Of a stretch of 64,000 nt of DNA, positions 54,995-61,038 are shown one piece after another. Source of the DNA: Actinomadura craniellae (GTDB taxonomy: Bacteria > Actinomycetota > Actinomycetes > Streptosporangiales > Streptosporangiaceae). Both the position numbers and the translations under genes were made by a program. The notes under the pieces were generated by a model. It saw only the letters and a list, made by a program, of their open reading frames with translations. It did not search any database and was not told where the DNA came from. How positions within the stretch are numbered: the first letter of the stretch is position 1; each line of letters starts with the position of its first letter. The DNA is taken from the NCBI RefSeq assembly GCF_003289645.1, contig NZ_QLYX01000002.1:62001-126000 (forward strand), given 5' to 3'.

Positions 54995-56587
54995 ATGCCT
55001 CCGCACGCCCGCGAGCGCGGCAGGAACTCCGGAGAGGGGACCGTCAGCTACCTAGCGGTGATCTCCCTGCTCGGCGCGATCCTCGCGACCGTCACCATCA
55101 CTCCTGTCGGGACGAAAGTGACCGGCGGTATCGAGTCGGCCATCTGCCGGGTCGTGGAGCAGGCCCTCGCCCAGGCGTGCATCCCGGGCACGAAGGGCGG
55201 CAACGGCGATGTCACGTCGGACCCGCGACCGCCCGTCGACCCGAACGCGCAGCCCACGCCGGAGGACGAAGCCTTCCAGCCGAATCGGTGCATCATCTCC
55301 CAGGAGACGACCACGACCCGGTCGGCGATGCGGATCCTCTTCATCAAGATCACCTCGACCAGCCAGGTGAAGGTCATCCAGTGGTCCGACGGCACGGTGA
55401 CCGTCGACAGCACGGGCGTCGCCGCCGGCGGGGTGGAGGCCGCGTTCGACATCCCGGGGCTCGGCAAGTGGGGTGGCAGCGCCTCGTTGCAGGGCAGCTT
55501 CACCAAGGGCAGCGGCGGCGGCGGGCGGTGGCTGTTCGACAAGCACAAGACCGGCGACCCGCAGAAGGACCTGGAACTCAACCACGCGGACGCCGAGCAG
55601 TTCATCGAATACCTCAAGGGCGCGGCCAAGTGCAACTCCCGCCCGCCCGGAGCCCGCAGCACCGAACTCGGCATGCTCTGCCACCACAACAACCAGGACA
55701 AACTGCCCCCGCTACCGCCCGACCGGATCCCCGACCTGGACATCACCCGGACCACCATGGAGGCTGCCGGCGACCTCAAGTTCGGCGGGTCCTTCAGCAA
55801 GGGCGACAAGAAGATCCTCAGCGGCACCACCAAGGGCCTCGCCGGCACCGTGCTGGATGACGTCCTGGTGATGCGCGGCAACGGCGAGGTCACCTTCGTC
55901 TACACCATGGAGATCGGCGGCAAGATGGGCGCCGGCTACCAGGCCGAAGGCTCCTACATGCAGCAGGTCTACGTCACCTATAACGCCGAGGAGTACGACA
56001 AGGCCAAGAAGGAGGGCCGGTCCCCGAGCCCGGTCTACCTGCGGATCACCACCGCCCGCCGGGGCGCCGACGGCAACCCGGGCTTCGAAGGCAAGATCAC
56101 GCCGCAGGCGGGGCCGTTCACCATCCAGATCGAGGGCGGCGGCGGCAAGACCGACACCACCGTCCACACCGAGGTCGCCGAGCTGGACCTGCACAACAAC
56201 CCCGGCGACAGCGCGATCGTCCAGGAATGGCTGGAGGGCCGTGGGCGCAACCCCGCCGCCAGCCTCCCCACCCCCCGGGACTTCACCAACCCCCTGCCGC
56301 CCAACGCCTCCGAGTTCGAAAAGCTGATGCACGAGAAGGCCAAGATCAGCAGCCTCGAGTACAGGGTCAACATCGACTGGTGGAAGGCCGCCTTCGCGAT
56401 CGGCCTGGGCGTGTCCACGGGCAAGGGCGGGACCGTCGGCTTCAAGCTCTTCGGCCTGGAGATCAGCCAGGAGACCGAGACCCAGACGCTGTCCGGCAAC
56501 CCGCTCTACGCGGGCGCGCCCGACCCCGACGGGAGCCGCCCCTGGTTCCCGTTCACCAACTGCACCAAGGTCAAGCCGATTCCCTGA
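54995..56587 (+). CDS. Unknown exported protein, paralogue A, pilin-like N-terminus
   Basis: 530 aa. The N-terminus RNSGEGTVSYLAVISLLGAI resembles class III (Flp/TadE) prepilin signals: a Gly, then a short polar stretch, then a Tyr and a hydrophobic helix. The usual Glu at +5 is Ser. Residues ~60-95 are a Pro/Gly linker. The remaining ~430 residues are Gly-rich and beta-prone (GGSASLQGSFTKG, FGGSFSKGDKKIL, MEIGGKMGAGYQAEGSY). Six cysteines are conserved in the paralogue (ICRVV, QACIP, RCI, KCNSRP, MLCHH, TNC). It ends FTNCTKVKPIP. No family recognised. Tandem with paralogue B at 56885. Confidence 0.8.
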   Translation: MPPHARERGRNSGEGTVSYLAVISLLGAILATVTITPVGTKVTGGIESAICRVVEQALAQACIPGTKGGNGDVTSDPRPPVDPNAQPTPEDEAFQPNRCIISQETTTTRSAMRILFIKITSTSQVKVIQWSDGTVTVDSTGVAAGGVEAAFDIPGLGKWGGSASLQGSFTKGSGGGGRWLFDKHKTGDPQKDLELNHADAEQFIEYLKGAAKCNSRPPGARSTELGMLCHHNNQDKLPPLPPDRIPDLDITRTTMEAAGDLKFGGSFSKGDKKILSGTTKGLAGTVLDDVLVMRGNGEVTFVYTMEIGGKMGAGYQAEGSYMQQVYVTYNAEEYDKAKKEGRSPSPVYLRITTARRGADGNPGFEGKITPQAGPFTIQIEGGGGKTDTTVHTEVAELDLHNNPGDSAIVQEWLEGRGRNPAASLPTPRDFTNPLPPNASEFEKLMHEKAKISSLEYRVNIDWWKAAFAIGLGVSTGKGGTVGFKLFGLEISQETETQTLSGNPLYAGAPDPDGSRPWFPFTNCTKVKPIP

Positions 56588-56658
56588 CCCGCCCGGCACG
56601 ACCCGATGGCGGCCGGCCTGCCCGACTCACCGTCCGGGTGAAATGCCAGATCACCGGC

Positions 56659-56715
56659 GGGCTGCCGGGGCCGATGCCAATGAACTGATCGGTGCCGGAC
56701 TCCACCGCCACCCGG
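56659..56715 (-). pseudogene. 57-bp remnant of a DUF574-type methyltransferase gene
   Basis: 50 of 57 bases match 59032-59088, the part of the intact methyltransferase gene that encodes VESGIDQFIDIGSG around SAM motif I. The rest of the gene is missing. It lies between paralogues A and B in the same place and orientation as the intact methyltransferase after paralogue B. Confidence 0.75.
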
Positions 56716-56744
56716 CTTTACCAGATCACCCACCGGTCGCATGA

Positions 56745-56787
56745 AGGGCCTGGGGACCCATTTCCAATGGGTCCCCAGGCCCTTTTT
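56745..56787 (+). terminator. Strong intrinsic terminator between the paralogues
   Basis: Perfect 16-bp stem (arms 56745-56760 and 56768-56783), 7-nt loop, followed by a TTTTT run. A canonical Rho-independent terminator, rare in such GC-rich genomes. Confidence 0.85.
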
Positions 56788-56790
56788 GGT

Positions 56791-56808
56791 GGGCCTACAG
56801 GCCCTTTT
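56791..56808 (+). terminator. Second short T-tract hairpin in the paralogue B leader
   Basis: GGGCC-TACA-GGCCC followed by TTTT. It aligns with the T-tract hairpin at 54903-54920 before paralogue A, both ending about 75 nt before the start codon, so it belongs to the duplicated leader. Confidence 0.5.
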
Positions 56809-56884
56809 CAGGTGAACATTCGGCTTCTATCTTCGGAATTCTTGCGGTGCCGGTCGGAAGCTAGTTGACAGGCGGTTAGCCGAG

Positions 56885-58483
56885 ATGTCTCCGTACGACT
56901 GCAAGCACAACAGGAACGCCGGAGAGGGGACCGTCAGCTATCTGGCGGTGATCTCCCTGCTCAGCGCGGTTCTCGCGACCATCACCATCACCCCCGTCGG
57001 GACGAAGGTGACCGGCGGCATCGAGTCGGCCATCTGCCGGGTCGTGGAGCAGGCCCTCGCCCAGGCCTGCATTCCGAGCACGAACGGCGGCGGTGGCGGC
57101 AACGGCGACGTCTCGTCGGACCCGCCCGTCGACCCGGACGCGCGACCCACACCGGAGGACGACGCGTTCCAGCCGCCCAAGTGCATTCTCGCCCAGGAGA
57201 CGACCAAGACCAGAACGGTGATGCGGATCCTCTTCATCAAGATCAGCTCGACCAGCCAGGTGCAGGTCACCCAGTGGTCCGACGGCACGATCACCGTCGA
57301 CAGCACGGGCGTCGCCGCCGGCGGGGTGGAAGGCGGGCTGGACATCCCCGGACTCAGCCAGTGGGGCGGCGATGCCTCGTTGCAGGGCAGCTTCACCAAG
57401 GGCGGCGGCGGCGGCGGACGGTGGCTGTTCGACAAGCACAAGACCGGTGACCCGCAAAGGGACCTGGAACTCAACCACGCGGACGCCGAGCAGTTCATCG
57501 AATACCTCAAGGGCGCGGCCAGGTGCAACTCCCGCCCGCCCGGAGCGCGCAGCACCGAACTCGGCATGCTCTGCCACCACTCCAACCAGGACAAACTGCC
57601 CCCGCTGCCGCCCGACCGGATCCCCGACCTGGACATCACCCGGACCACCATGGAAGCCTCCGGCGAGTTCGAGTTCGGCGGGGCCTTCAGCAAGGGCGAC
57701 AAGAAGATCCTCAGCGGCATCACCCGGGGCCTCAGCGGCACCGTGCTCGACGACGTCCTGGTGCTGCGCGGCGGCAACAACGAGCTCACCTTCGTCTACA
57801 CCATGGAGATCGGCGGCAAGATGGGCGCCGGCTACCAGGCCGAAGGCTCCTACATGCAGCAGGTCTACGTCACCTACAAGGCCGACGAGTACGACAAGGC
57901 CAAGAAGGAGGGCCGGCCCCAGCGCCCGACCTACCTGCAGGTCGTCACCTCCCGCCGGGGCGCCGACGGCAACCCGGGCGGCGACGTCAAGATCAACCCG
58001 CAGGTGGGACCGTTCACCATCCAGGTCGAGGGCGGCGGCGGCGAGACCGAAACCACCGTCCACACCGAGGTCGCCGAACTGGACCTGAGCAACAGCCCCG
58101 GCGACAGCGAGATCGTCCAGAACTGGCTGGAGGGCCGCGGGCGCAACCCCGCCGCCAGCCTGCCCACCCCCCGGGACTTCACCAACCCCCTGCCGCCCAA
58201 CGCCTCCGAGTTCGAGAAGCTGATGCACGGCAAGGGCAAGATCAGCAGCCTCGACTACAAGGTCAACATCGACTGGTGGCGGGCCGCCTTCGCGATCAGC
58301 CTCGGAGTGGCCACGCGCAAGGGGGGGACCACCGGCTTCAAGCTCTTCGGCCTGGAGATCAGCCAGGAGACCGAGACCCAGACGCTGACCGGCAACCCCC
58401 TCTTCGCGGGCGCGCCCGACCCCGACGGGAGCCGCCCCTGGTTCCCGTTCACCAACTGCTCCAAGGTCAAGCCGGTTCCCTGA
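56885..58483 (+). CDS. Unknown exported protein, paralogue B, pilin-like N-terminus
   Basis: 532 aa, roughly 85% identical to paralogue A by eye from residue 9 onward, with the same N-terminal motif (RNAGEGTVSYLAVISLL), linker, Gly-rich beta domain and six shared cysteines. One extra Cys lies at position 6. The most variable stretch is the linker (TNGGGGGNGDVSSDPPVDPD). The leader before it is also duplicated, with the segment CGGTGCCGGTCGGAAGCTAG corresponding to the sequence before A. The 3' end overlaps the convergent methyltransferase gene by 17 bp. Confidence 0.8.
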   Translation: MSPYDCKHNRNAGEGTVSYLAVISLLSAVLATITITPVGTKVTGGIESAICRVVEQALAQACIPSTNGGGGGNGDVSSDPPVDPDARPTPEDDAFQPPKCILAQETTKTRTVMRILFIKISSTSQVQVTQWSDGTITVDSTGVAAGGVEGGLDIPGLSQWGGDASLQGSFTKGGGGGGRWLFDKHKTGDPQRDLELNHADAEQFIEYLKGAARCNSRPPGARSTELGMLCHHSNQDKLPPLPPDRIPDLDITRTTMEASGEFEFGGAFSKGDKKILSGITRGLSGTVLDDVLVLRGGNNELTFVYTMEIGGKMGAGYQAEGSYMQQVYVTYKADEYDKAKKEGRPQRPTYLQVVTSRRGADGNPGGDVKINPQVGPFTIQVEGGGGETETTVHTEVAELDLSNSPGDSEIVQNWLEGRGRNPAASLPTPRDFTNPLPPNASEFEKLMHGKGKISSLDYKVNIDWWRAAFAISLGVATRKGGTTGFKLFGLEISQETETQTLTGNPLFAGAPDPDGSRPWFPFTNCSKVKPVP

Positions 58484-59276
58484 CCCTGCCGACCCCGCCC
58501 AGCACCAGGAAGCGCTCCGGACGCTCGGCGACCTCGCCGGCGTCCGGGCGCCACAGGGGGACGTAGACCACGCCGGGATCGAGGAGCTCGTAGCCCGCGA
58601 AGAAGCGGAGGATCTCGGCGTGCGTGCGCGCCACCGCGGGCGAGCTCGCCCGGGTGTAGAGCTTCTCGATGGCGGCCGACTTGCCCGGCTCGTCGTCCCG
58701 GGTGAGATGCGAGATCACCAGCAGGCTGCCGGGGGCCGAGACCTCGCGCAGGGCGCCGACGATGCCGTAGGGGTCCTCGTCCGGCTTGATCAGATGCAGT
58801 GCCGCCACCAGCAGGAACGCCACTGGGCGGGAGAAGTCGATCAGGTCGCCCACGGTGGGGTGCCCGAGGATGTCCGCCGGCCGCCGCATGTCGGCCTCGA
58901 TCACGGCGGTGCGCTCGTCGCCCGCCAGGATGGCCTTGCTGTGCGCCACCGCCACGGCGTCGTTGTCGACGTAGACGACGCGCGCCCGCGGATCGACCTG
59001 CTGGACGATCTCGTGCACGTTGCCCTGGGTCGGGATGCCGGAGCCGATGTCGATGAACTGGTCGATGCCGGACTCCACCGCCATCCGGGCGGCCCGGGTC
59101 AGGAAGGCACGGTTCGCCTGGGCGAGCTCACGGGCCTGGGGCTCGATCCTGAGCAGGCCGGTGGCCAGATCCCGATCCGCGGGGAAGTTGTGCGTCCCGC
59201 CGAGCAGGAAGTCGTAGACCCGCGCCACGCTGGGCTTCTGCTCGTCGATCTCGGCGGGGATCCGGGCCGAGTCCAT
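58467..59276 (-). CDS. DUF574-type SAM-dependent methyltransferase
   Basis: 269 aa from ATG 59276, with GGAGGTGG upstream. Family sequence is clear: PSVARVYDFLLGGTHNFPAD near the N-terminus, QFIDIGSGIPTQGNVHEIVQ for SAM binding, VVYVDNDAVAVAHSKAIL, and the ADMRRPADILGHP motif. This group is greatly expanded in Streptosporangiales and Streptomyces, with no settled substrate. It overlaps paralogue B tail to tail. A remnant of a second copy exists at 56659. Confidence 0.9.
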   Translation of the reverse strand: MDSARIPAEIDEQKPSVARVYDFLLGGTHNFPADRDLATGLLRIEPQARELAQANRAFLTRAARMAVESGIDQFIDIGSGIPTQGNVHEIVQQVDPRARVVYVDNDAVAVAHSKAILAGDERTAVIEADMRRPADILGHPTVGDLIDFSRPVAFLLVAALHLIKPDEDPYGIVGALREVSAPGSLLVISHLTRDDEPGKSAAIEKLYTRASSPAVARTHAEILRFFAGYELLDPGVVYVPLWRPDAGEVAERPERFLVLGGVGRVREPA

Positions 59277-59433
59277 GCTGGTCCACCTCCGGTGATCACC
59301 TGGGTGCAGGCTCCCGGGAATCGTAGCCTTTTCGGAATCTGTTGCCCTAGATCCCCGCGCATAGGAAAATAAGCAACGCAGGCGACGGGATAGTTCTCTG
59401 GCACATTTCCGCACGGAGGCGAGGCGCACCGCG

Positions 59434-61038
59434 GTGGAAGCGGCAGGTTGGCCGTTCCCGGCCACCGTGGTGCTCGGCCCCGAGGGCCGGGTGACCGGCT
59501 GGAGCTCCGGGGCCGAACGGTTGCTCGGCCTCCCCGCCGGGCAAGCCCTCGGGCGCGACGTCCGGGACCTGCTCGACCACCCCGCGCTGGAGCAGGGGCT
59601 CGCGCTCGCGACAACGGGCGGGACCTGGCACGACACCTGCCCCGCCGGGGTGCGGCTGGTCTGCGAACCGTTGCTGCGCGACGGGCGCGTCTCGGTCCTC
59701 CTCACGATGATCCCCGGGATCCCCGGCGGCCTGGAACTGCTGAACGAGGCCGCCGACCGGATCGGCTCCACGCTCGATCTCGGCCGTACCGCCCGGGAGA
59801 TCGTCGAGGTCGCGGTGCCGCGCTTCGCCGACGCCGGCGGCGTCTACGTGCTGGAACGGCTGCTGGCCGACGAGGACTCCCCGCGCCGGGAGGCCGACGG
59901 CCGCATCGTGGTGCGCCGGCTGGCCATCGTGCTCGCCGCGGACGATCCGGACGACTGGAGCGACGTGTTCCCCGTCGACGAGGTGATCGTCCATCCGGCC
60001 GGCAGCCCGTACGCCGAATGCGTGGCCACCGGCCACCCGGTGCTGTGCACCGGAGCGGACGTCGGCGACCTCATCACACACCGCACCGGACGGCACCTGG
60101 CCGAGGTCCGCGACCACGCCTCCCTGCTGACCGTGCCGCTGACGGCCCGCGGCCGGACCCTGGGCTTCGCCCTCTTCAGCCGCAAGCGGCCCCGCCCTCC
60201 CTTCGCCCCCGCCGACACCCGCCTGGCGGTGGAACTGGCCGGGCGCGCCGCGGTCTGCGTCGACAACGCGCGGCTGTACCGGCGCGAGCACCGCACGGCG
60301 GTCACCCTGCGCGCAAGCCTGCTGCCCGCGCAGATCACCGTGCCGGACGCGCTGGAGGTCGCGCACCGCTACCTGCCCGCCGACGACGTCACCGAGGTCG
60401 GCGGCGACTGGTACGACGTCGTCCCGCTGCCCGGCGGCGACGTCGCCCTCGTCATCGGCGACGCGATGGGGCACGGGGTGACGGCCGCTGCGGCGATGGG
60501 GCAGTTGCGCGTCGCCGCGCACACCCTGGCCGGCCTCGACCTGCCGCCGCACGAGGTGCTGACCCGGCTCGACAAGATCGCTCAGGGGCTGACCGCGGCC
60601 CAGTTCGCCACCTGTCTCTACGTCGTCTGCTCCCCCACCACCCGGCGCTGCCGGATCTCCGGCGCCGGGCACCCGCCGCCGCTGCTGGCGCTGCCGGACG
60701 GCACCACGCGGGTCCTGGACCACCCGCCGGGGCTTCCCCTCGGTGTCGGGGACACCGGCGTCGGGACCGGCTACGAGACCACCGAGTTGGAGATCCCGCC
60801 CGGCGCGACGCTCGTCCTCTACACCGACGGCCTGATCGAGAGCCGCCGGCACGATCTGGAGACCGGGATCGCCGCGCTGCGGGAATCCCTCACCCCGCAC
60901 CGCGGCTGCCTGGAGTCCGCCGCCGACGCCGTCCTCGACACCCTCCGGCACCGGCGGGGCGACGACGACATCTCCCTGCTCCTGGCCCGCCCCGCGGCAC
61001 CTGATCCGGACCGGCCCGCCATTACGCCCTGCGCGTGA
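59434..61038 (+). CDS. PAS-GAF-SpoIIE (PP2C) phosphatase
   Basis: 534 aa, GTG start. Residues ~1-70 are a short PAS-like segment (VVLGPEGRVTGWSSGAERLL). Residues ~105-275 are a GAF domain (IGSTLDLGRTAREIVEVAVP to ELAGRAAVCVDNARLY). Residues ~300-520 are a SpoIIE/PP2C Ser/Thr phosphatase with the metal acids in VGGDWYDVVPL, IGDAMGHGV, YTDGLIESR and RGDDDISLLL. No HATPase anti-sigma kinase domain is fused. Such proteins dephosphorylate anti-anti-sigma factors and control stress sigma factors, with a small ligand sensed by GAF. The partner is not in the window. Confidence 0.9.
   Translation: MEAAGWPFPATVVLGPEGRVTGWSSGAERLLGLPAGQALGRDVRDLLDHPALEQGLALATTGGTWHDTCPAGVRLVCEPLLRDGRVSVLLTMIPGIPGGLELLNEAADRIGSTLDLGRTAREIVEVAVPRFADAGGVYVLERLLADEDSPRREADGRIVVRRLAIVLAADDPDDWSDVFPVDEVIVHPAGSPYAECVATGHPVLCTGADVGDLITHRTGRHLAEVRDHASLLTVPLTARGRTLGFALFSRKRPRPPFAPADTRLAVELAGRAAVCVDNARLYRREHRTAVTLRASLLPAQITVPDALEVAHRYLPADDVTEVGGDWYDVVPLPGGDVALVIGDAMGHGVTAAAAMGQLRVAAHTLAGLDLPPHEVLTRLDKIAQGLTAAQFATCLYVVCSPTTRRCRISGAGHPPPLLALPDGTTRVLDHPPGLPLGVGDTGVGTGYETTELEIPPGATLVLYTDGLIESRRHDLETGIAALRESLTPHRGCLESAADAVLDTLRHRRGDDDISLLLARPAAPDPDRPAITPCA

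Follow-up and report, generated by a model that had tools for sequence, protein, structure and literature searches.

Tandem fusions of a Flp-like N-terminal module to a beta-rich domain in Actinomadura craniellae, candidate modular pilins

The gene pair and its N-terminal module

In a 64,000-nucleotide stretch of Actinomadura craniellae DNA (contig NZ_QLYX01000002.1, positions 62,001 to 126,000 of the forward strand; the whole stretch is referred to as the window), two adjacent genes on the plus strand encode closely similar proteins that are probably modular Flp-type (type IVc, Tad) pilins, i.e., a short prepilin module as an export and assembly tag in front of a large C-terminal cargo. The first gene (P0001, 54995..56587, 530 amino acids (aa)) and the second (P0002, 56885..58483, 532 aa) were defined by their open reading frames (ORFs) and translations. 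Both ORFs are present as originally predicted, and the identity of their products, put at about 85% by eye, is 84%. The order is the same in both proteins: a short charged leader, the motif G/EGTVSY (the slash marks the predicted cleavage site), a hydrophobic stretch, a ...GIESAICRV...C segment, a Pro/Gly-rich linker, and a beta-rich domain, the last two as had been claimed from the sequence. The N-terminal sequences are ...SGEGTVSYLAVISLL in the first protein and ...AGEGTVSYLAVISLL in the second, in which Ser is residue +5 given cleavage after the Gly. The prepilin motif (55031..55051 and 56921..56941), assigned from the sequence, the module alignment and the +1/+5 pattern described below, has in the first protein Gly at -1, an acid at +1, Ser at +5 and Tyr at +6. 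Thus, both proteins start as class III signal prepilins do, i.e., with Gly at -1 and then a hydrophobic stretch of ~20 residues; the Glu expected at +5 is, however, Ser in both, with Glu at +1, and the genome's own Flp is shifted likewise.

The Flp-like module, comprising the hydrophobic helix and the ...GIESAICRV...C segment, spans 55013..55186 in the first gene and 56903..57076 in the second according to the module alignment and the genome search. The beta-rich C-terminal domain occupies 55277..56584 and 57170..58480, both delimited by family and profile searches and alignment, with poor structure models. Each protein has six cysteines, which agrees with the predicted number, but just four of them are invariant in an alignment of 11 wider relatives (C51, C62, C99, and C523 in the numbering of the first protein).

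The 7.5-Mb genome (41 contigs) was searched with the first protein as the query, which gave 15 places, of which 13 align over the first ~60–110 residues and then diverge into other sequence. A module profile of 57 positions built from the matches of this search found 18 places at E<=1.5e-11; two further matches (E 0.011 and 0.82) are chance-like. Two of the 18 module proteins are short (65 and 86 aa) and 16 have at least 297 aa, the N-terminal ~57 residues being fused in these 16 to larger, mostly unrelated parts, i.e., the composition of a modular pilin (pilin module plus unrelated domain). The pair is therefore no isolated new class of surface or secreted protein, as had been considered, since it makes up two of 18 proteins of the same genome with one module and differing C-termini. 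The interpretation given in the original prediction is in this sense partly supported.

The Tad locus and the acid at +1 or +5

A genome search for tad and prepilin peptidase genes, as originally suggested, revealed a complete Tad locus on another contig and one prepilin peptidase gene. The lack of tad genes in the window, a reservation of the original prediction, loses its weight once the whole genome is considered. The top-scoring TadA/CpaF-type ATPase of this genome is encoded on contig C38 in a cluster of the order CpaB-TadZ-TadE-TadE-TadA-TadB-TadC-histidine kinase-response regulator-Flp, and the 65-aa module protein sits in the Flp slot; these gene names, except TadA, are our assignments from gene order and sequence features. 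An OmpA-like lipoprotein gene follows the 65-aa protein, and four more module proteins are encoded within ~21 kb. The sole PF01478 (prepilin peptidase) match of the genome is on contig C2. The 65-aa protein (C38:317911) was matched at E 1.4e-7 when the window protein alone was the query and at E 9e-23 by the module profile, the latter value being that of a protein which is itself a row of the profile. The prediction of a Flp/prepilin-like N-terminus is thus borne out by homology: the genome's own Tad locus has, in its Flp slot, a stand-alone protein homologous to the module. Neither Flp_Fap nor DUF4244 of Pfam matches the window proteins, above the curated cut-offs or otherwise; among ten stand-alone proteins of relatives, Flp_Fap gives weak matches in three and DUF4244 in six, all under the curated cut-offs. 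Compared with the Flp/Fap pilins (PF04964) and DUF4244 proteins, the module is alike in its size, Gly at -1, hydrophobic helix and place in the Tad locus, together with these weak matches in relatives, whereas it differs in the fusion to cargos and, in this lineage, in an acid at +1 rather than +5.

The distribution of the module was compared with that of the Tad locus in 120 genomes of the family, which include Murinocardiopsis flavida (G007), Thermobifida cellulosilytica (G110), Actinorugispora endophytica (G042), and Nocardiopsis potens (G072). At a cut-off of E<=1e-3, the module is present in 35 of the 120, and the C38 type of TadA is found in 36 at E<=1e-179, with nothing from there to 1e-117. 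Both occur together in 34 genomes (Fisher p 2e-26, uncorrected for kinship), and presence and absence agree genome by genome within the mixed genera g38, g49, g51, and g67. Direct inspection of the two Tad-only genomes (G030 and G079) revealed a module-like protein in the Flp slot of each, which the profile search had overlooked. Inspection of the 36 Tad loci showed a short Flp-type ORF in 33. The highest numbers of module matches per genome are 45 (G050), 30 (G007), and 22 (G071). Class-wide, the profile found the module in 45 of 394 genomes at E<=1e-5; 24 of these 45 belong to one genus of another family, which we take to be Streptomyces. A phylum search with the Flp of one relative gave 2 of 396 genomes at E<=1e-6, a number that says little about the spread of the module because a lone short query is weak.

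The position of the acid was counted in 112 module proteins from 27 genomes. The scripted count gave 51 proteins with an acid at +1 only, 57 at +5 only, none at both and four at neither, i.e., exactly one acid in 108 of the 112; a hand check found two of the 51 misplaced (L112:18366 and L160), so that the corrected numbers are 49, 59, 0, and 4. The 112 rows are related, and the scripted Fisher value of 1e-27 is consequently no probability of chance. In most genomes, both Flp and cargo proteins start like G/A..VEY with Glu at +5. Flp proteins with an acid (Glu or Asp) at +1 but not at +5 are found in five genomes (G000, G037, G050, G088, and G089), and these are the same five that have cargos with the acid at +1. 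Exceptions are three proteins of G050, in which +1 is Ser and +5 is either Asp or Glu, and the Flp of G043, outside the 112 counted, with Glu at +4. The TadE-like protein in the G000 and G050 loci retains Glu at +5. On the TadA tree, the genomes with the acid at +1 require three changes, at least two by starred branches; since the outgroup is too distant for rooting and G088 stands alone on a long branch, we make no claim as to how many changes there were or in which direction. According to the available part of PMC10191384, a pairing of Glu5 with the N-terminal amine of the following subunit is assumed within the filament. The Ser at +5 of the window proteins, originally described as a replacement of Glu, is indeed there; it is no simple loss though, the acid being found at +1 instead, in the Flp too. 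The joint shift to +1, a place adjacent to this amine, would be best explained by cleavage at the same Gly and the same packing rule for pilin and cargo.

We favor the modular pilin reading because the module is shared by 18 proteins including the one in the Flp slot, because module and Tad locus co-occur, and because pilin and cargo follow a common +1/+5 acid rule. As the proposed mechanism, the prepilin peptidase would cut after Gly13 and the Tad platform (TadA/B/C) would pull the subunits into or through the filament, by which the C-terminal domain would either be displayed at the cell surface or be released from it. Alternatively, the module could be only a pilin-derived membrane anchor, by which the proteins would remain in the cytoplasmic membrane, their C-terminal domain facing outward and Tad being uninvolved. 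A hydrophobic stretch does suffice as a signal anchor, many of the cargo genes are far from the Tad locus, and the processing is a prediction from sequence; a plain anchor, however, would not be expected to co-occur almost perfectly with one type of Tad locus, nor to share the behavior of its acid with Flp, and we regard this alternative as unlikely.

Several further observations were made on Tad loci and pilin-like starts. In the Tad locus of contig C38 (L048:7132-15076), a histidine kinase and a response regulator lie between tadC and flp, an arrangement kept in most of the inspected loci. A second TadA, on contig C37 (L050:8646-12651), belongs to a Tad-like locus whose small Flp-like protein is a different one (GMSTAEY, with Glu kept at +5). 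Fusions of ~700–750 aa with G/QTAVEYLG-type starts, also with Glu at +5, occur in another family of the class (L083-L090). Tad-locus proteins of ~200 aa (L106:13875-14540, L118:14124-14783, and others) have a pilin-like start and a C-terminus reading as NlpC/P60; perhaps they are wall-opening minor pilins.

Cargo domains and partner genes

Among the 112 module proteins, 90 are complete with a length of at least 150 aa, and these were compared with Pfam at E<=1e-3. The commonest matches are PT-HINT (13), Peptidase_C2 (calpain, 5), DUF6782 (3), and GDPD_2 (3), followed by NlpC/P60 (2) and PI3/PI4-kinase-like (2); a few proteins match alpha/beta hydrolase or lipase entries. Found once each are Cytotoxic (colicin E3-like), ADPrib_exo_Tox, Ntox24, Ntox17, XOO_2897-deam, a BURPS668_1122-type deaminase, and a thermolysin C-terminal domain. 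When ten module proteins of the own genome were scanned singly, a GDPD-type domain was found in two (one above and one below the Pfam cut-off) and a DUF6782-type metallopeptidase-like domain in two (both below the cut-off), leaving six without a convincing match. The family as a whole thus has a common N-terminus, variable and partly toxic C-termini, and pretoxin-HINT domains, and judged from these domain matches the cargo repertoire is that of a polymorphic toxin system to which hydrolases are added. An SMI1_KNR4 match was found in one of 44 codirectional downstream genes of module proteins. Given that polymorphic-toxin or hydrolase domains make up many of the cargos, the most likely role of the system is antagonism toward, or predation on, neighboring cells together with surface enzymology.

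The beta-rich domain of the window pair has, as was predicted, no family match in Pfam, NCBIfam, or PDB: Pfam gave no match with the window proteins at E<=10, NCBIfam gave a single match far under its cut-off, and a PDB profile search with the domain gave chance-level matches only. A PADLOC search for the domain found no meaningful match. AlphaFold modeling of six sequences in two runs resulted in mean values of the predicted local distance difference test (pLDDT) of 37.6 and 39.6, too low to judge the fold. Iterative profile searching collected 15 proteins with this domain, the window pair included, and seven more are alike at the C-terminus with weak scores, making 22 beta-type proteins in all. 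A next codirectional gene within 300 bp is present for 18 of the 22, among them the first window gene, which is followed by the second window gene. A small protein with at least three predicted membrane spans is encoded next in 9 of these 18 versus 0 of 31 other cargos (p 2e-5), the background being 32 of 571 genes, and a lipoprotein-like gene is next in 5 of 18 versus 7 of 31. The gene next to the second window gene is on the opposite strand. Beside beta-type module genes, lipoprotein-like genes that contain a '...HPAGW' motif or one resembling it were seen at L011:14534-15115, L011:16811-17362, and L125:1936-2478.

Within the modular pilin reading, one may ask whether the beta domain is a membrane-acting toxin delivered by Tad, with relatives paired to membrane immunity proteins. 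The excess of membrane-spanning neighbors over both other cargos and background, and the lipoprotein-like gene that follows five further beta-type members, would fit such a toxin; on the other hand, 7 of the 22 beta-type rows were added by eye or by weak scores, L106 and L118 are near-copies, lipoprotein-like genes also follow other cargos, and the window pair has no such partner, resembles no known toxin fold, and yields models too poor to judge. Thus, the toxin–immunity reading is suggestive where the beta-type relatives are concerned but finds no support in the window pair itself, and overall we consider such a toxin rather improbable. Slightly better, though still doubtful, is the chance that the domain is an adhesin or a structural tip module, comparable to the Streptococcus sanguinis modular pilins or to Caulobacter CpaL. 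Most of the known modular pilins are adhesive as far as the available text of PMC8179133 and, for CpaL, of PMC12607857 goes, and a beta-rich domain with conserved cysteines, no enzyme signature and no immunity partner in the window would suit this role; it leaves, however, the membrane and lipoprotein partner genes of the relatives unexplained. For the pair, the most likely role is display of a domain, to which we do not give a named activity, at the cell surface, where it would act on membranes or the surfaces of cells or close to them.

TGGGYCC/GGRCCCA elements near module genes

A short element, TGGGYCC/GGRCCCA, was found in the own genome by k-mers and by eye, and its statistic there (upstream of 9 of 18 module genes versus 8 of 103 other upstream regions) is post hoc. 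It is enriched in two of seven other genomes (G050, 13/25 versus 2/24, p 0.0009; G023, 4/4 versus 0/10, p 0.0006) and not significantly in G037, G089, G007, G071, or G056. The elements are often in tandem, 11 or 12 bp apart. The strict pair TGGGYCC-N4/5-TGGGYCC, a pattern defined after several of its sites had been seen, has six sites in the own genome. Four lie a short way upstream of a module gene and in its orientation (the Flp gene included), and a fifth is in the same C38 cluster, ahead of a lipoprotein-like gene and in the opposite reading direction. In G050, it has 12 sites, six of which are close upstream of listed module genes when positions are compared by hand; elsewhere, there is one in G037 (upstream of a module gene), two each in G023 and G084 (none near listed modules), and none in G089 and G113.

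Between the window genes, an inverted repeat with two 9-base arms, a 7-base spacer and a T-run shortly after (56752..56776, plus strand) is seen in the sequence. It is terminator-like for the first gene (site 56769-56782) and holds one GGRCCCA and one TGGGYCC, and here the element, which overlaps a terminator-like site, may or may not act as a terminator. We rejected the idea that the GGGCCC-type element is a mere terminator, as it is present whether the upstream gene is divergent (4/8) or codirectional (12/21).

Weighing of the reading, known systems, and neighboring genes

A number of points speak against the modular pilin reading. Subunits of 530 aa are bulky, and it may be doubtful whether they fit into the body of a filament. 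Glu at +5, the hallmark of most pilins, is absent in the window pair, and Pfam assigns the module to no pilin family. G076 has one borderline module match (5e-4) and lacks this Tad type, and a Flp ORF was not found in three of the 36 loci, two of which (G046 and G056) have contig ends nearby and one of which (G112) shows none. The window pair has neither a toxin-domain match nor an adjacent immunity-like gene and does not by itself qualify as a polymorphic toxin. The strict tandem pair is upstream of neither window gene, and its pattern is in no excess genome-wide (6 versus 7 for the reversed control). The support is computational throughout.

The closest published kinds are the modular pilins and CpaL for the architecture and the polymorphic toxins for the cargo, which are known separately. 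Modular type IV pilins comprise more than 1,200 proteins in 264 architectures, PilB and PilC of S. sanguinis among them, and these likewise join a short N-terminal pilin module to an unrelated functional domain; judging from the available text of PMC8179133, they are defined by IPR012902 and studied as adhesins, whereas the proteins here are of the Flp/Tad type, reach 18–45 copies in some genomes, and carry many toxin-like domains. CpaL, a Tad minor pilin of Caulobacter crescentus with a von Willebrand factor A (vWA) domain, shares the Tad system and the pilin-like module with a large extra domain; it is, however, a single gene and proposed tip mechanosensor, with no family of exchangeable cargos in the accessible part of PMC12607857. 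Polymorphic toxin systems (PMC3482391) have in common with our proteins an N-terminal trafficking part, a variable C-terminal toxin, and HINT domains; the trafficking part here is a pilin, and the words 'pilin', 'pilus', and 'TadE' are absent from the text of PMC3482391 as available. The Kil apparatus of Myxococcus xanthus is also a Tad-like machine tied to contact-dependent killing, but pilin-fused effectors are not mentioned in the available text of PMC8460266, whose authors leave toxin secretion open. Ionophore toxins of contact-dependent inhibition (CDI) are a subject of PMC11630599, as far as its available part goes. We found nothing in the open-access literature joining Flp/Tad pilins with polymorphic effectors; subscription papers and preprints lie mostly outside this body, so novelty is unproven. 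The proteins are best filed as a variant of the modular pilins in which Flp-type modules head a large cargo family, toxic in part, that is linked to a single type of Tad locus.

If the Tad route is true, it would be a new trafficking mode for polymorphic toxins, it would give a function to the little-studied actinomycete Tad loci, and one tag would account for many hypothetical secreted proteins of 300–900 aa. More broadly, and tentatively, somewhat short of an even chance in our view, the Tad pilus of many actinomycetes may be a machine for contact-dependent delivery or display of effectors, whose major-pilin module fronts dozens of interchangeable toxin, hydrolase, and beta domains (18 module proteins here and 45 in a relative), and in part of whose family the assembly-critical acid has moved jointly from +5 to +1. 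Such a machine would be a pilin-led counterpart of the polymorphic toxin systems of CDI and of the type VI (T6SS) and type VII (T7SS) secretion systems. The acid exchange would be a natural experiment on the role of the Glu5 charge in pilin assembly, a long-standing question, and the module tag could serve for finding more effector domains.

Upstream of the pair, the adjoining polyester hydrolase of the original prediction was recovered: the plus-strand gene at 53694-54563 matches lipase, polyethylene terephthalate (PET) hydrolase, and cutinase structures and encodes a secreted esterase of the PET hydrolase/cutinase type, its best PDB match being a triacylglycerol lipase (E 1.6e-138) with named PET hydrolases close behind. 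Downstream, an ORF on the minus strand (58467-59771) is convergent with the second gene and overlaps its end by ~16 bp; its product presumably resembles an S-adenosylmethionine (SAM)-dependent methyltransferase.

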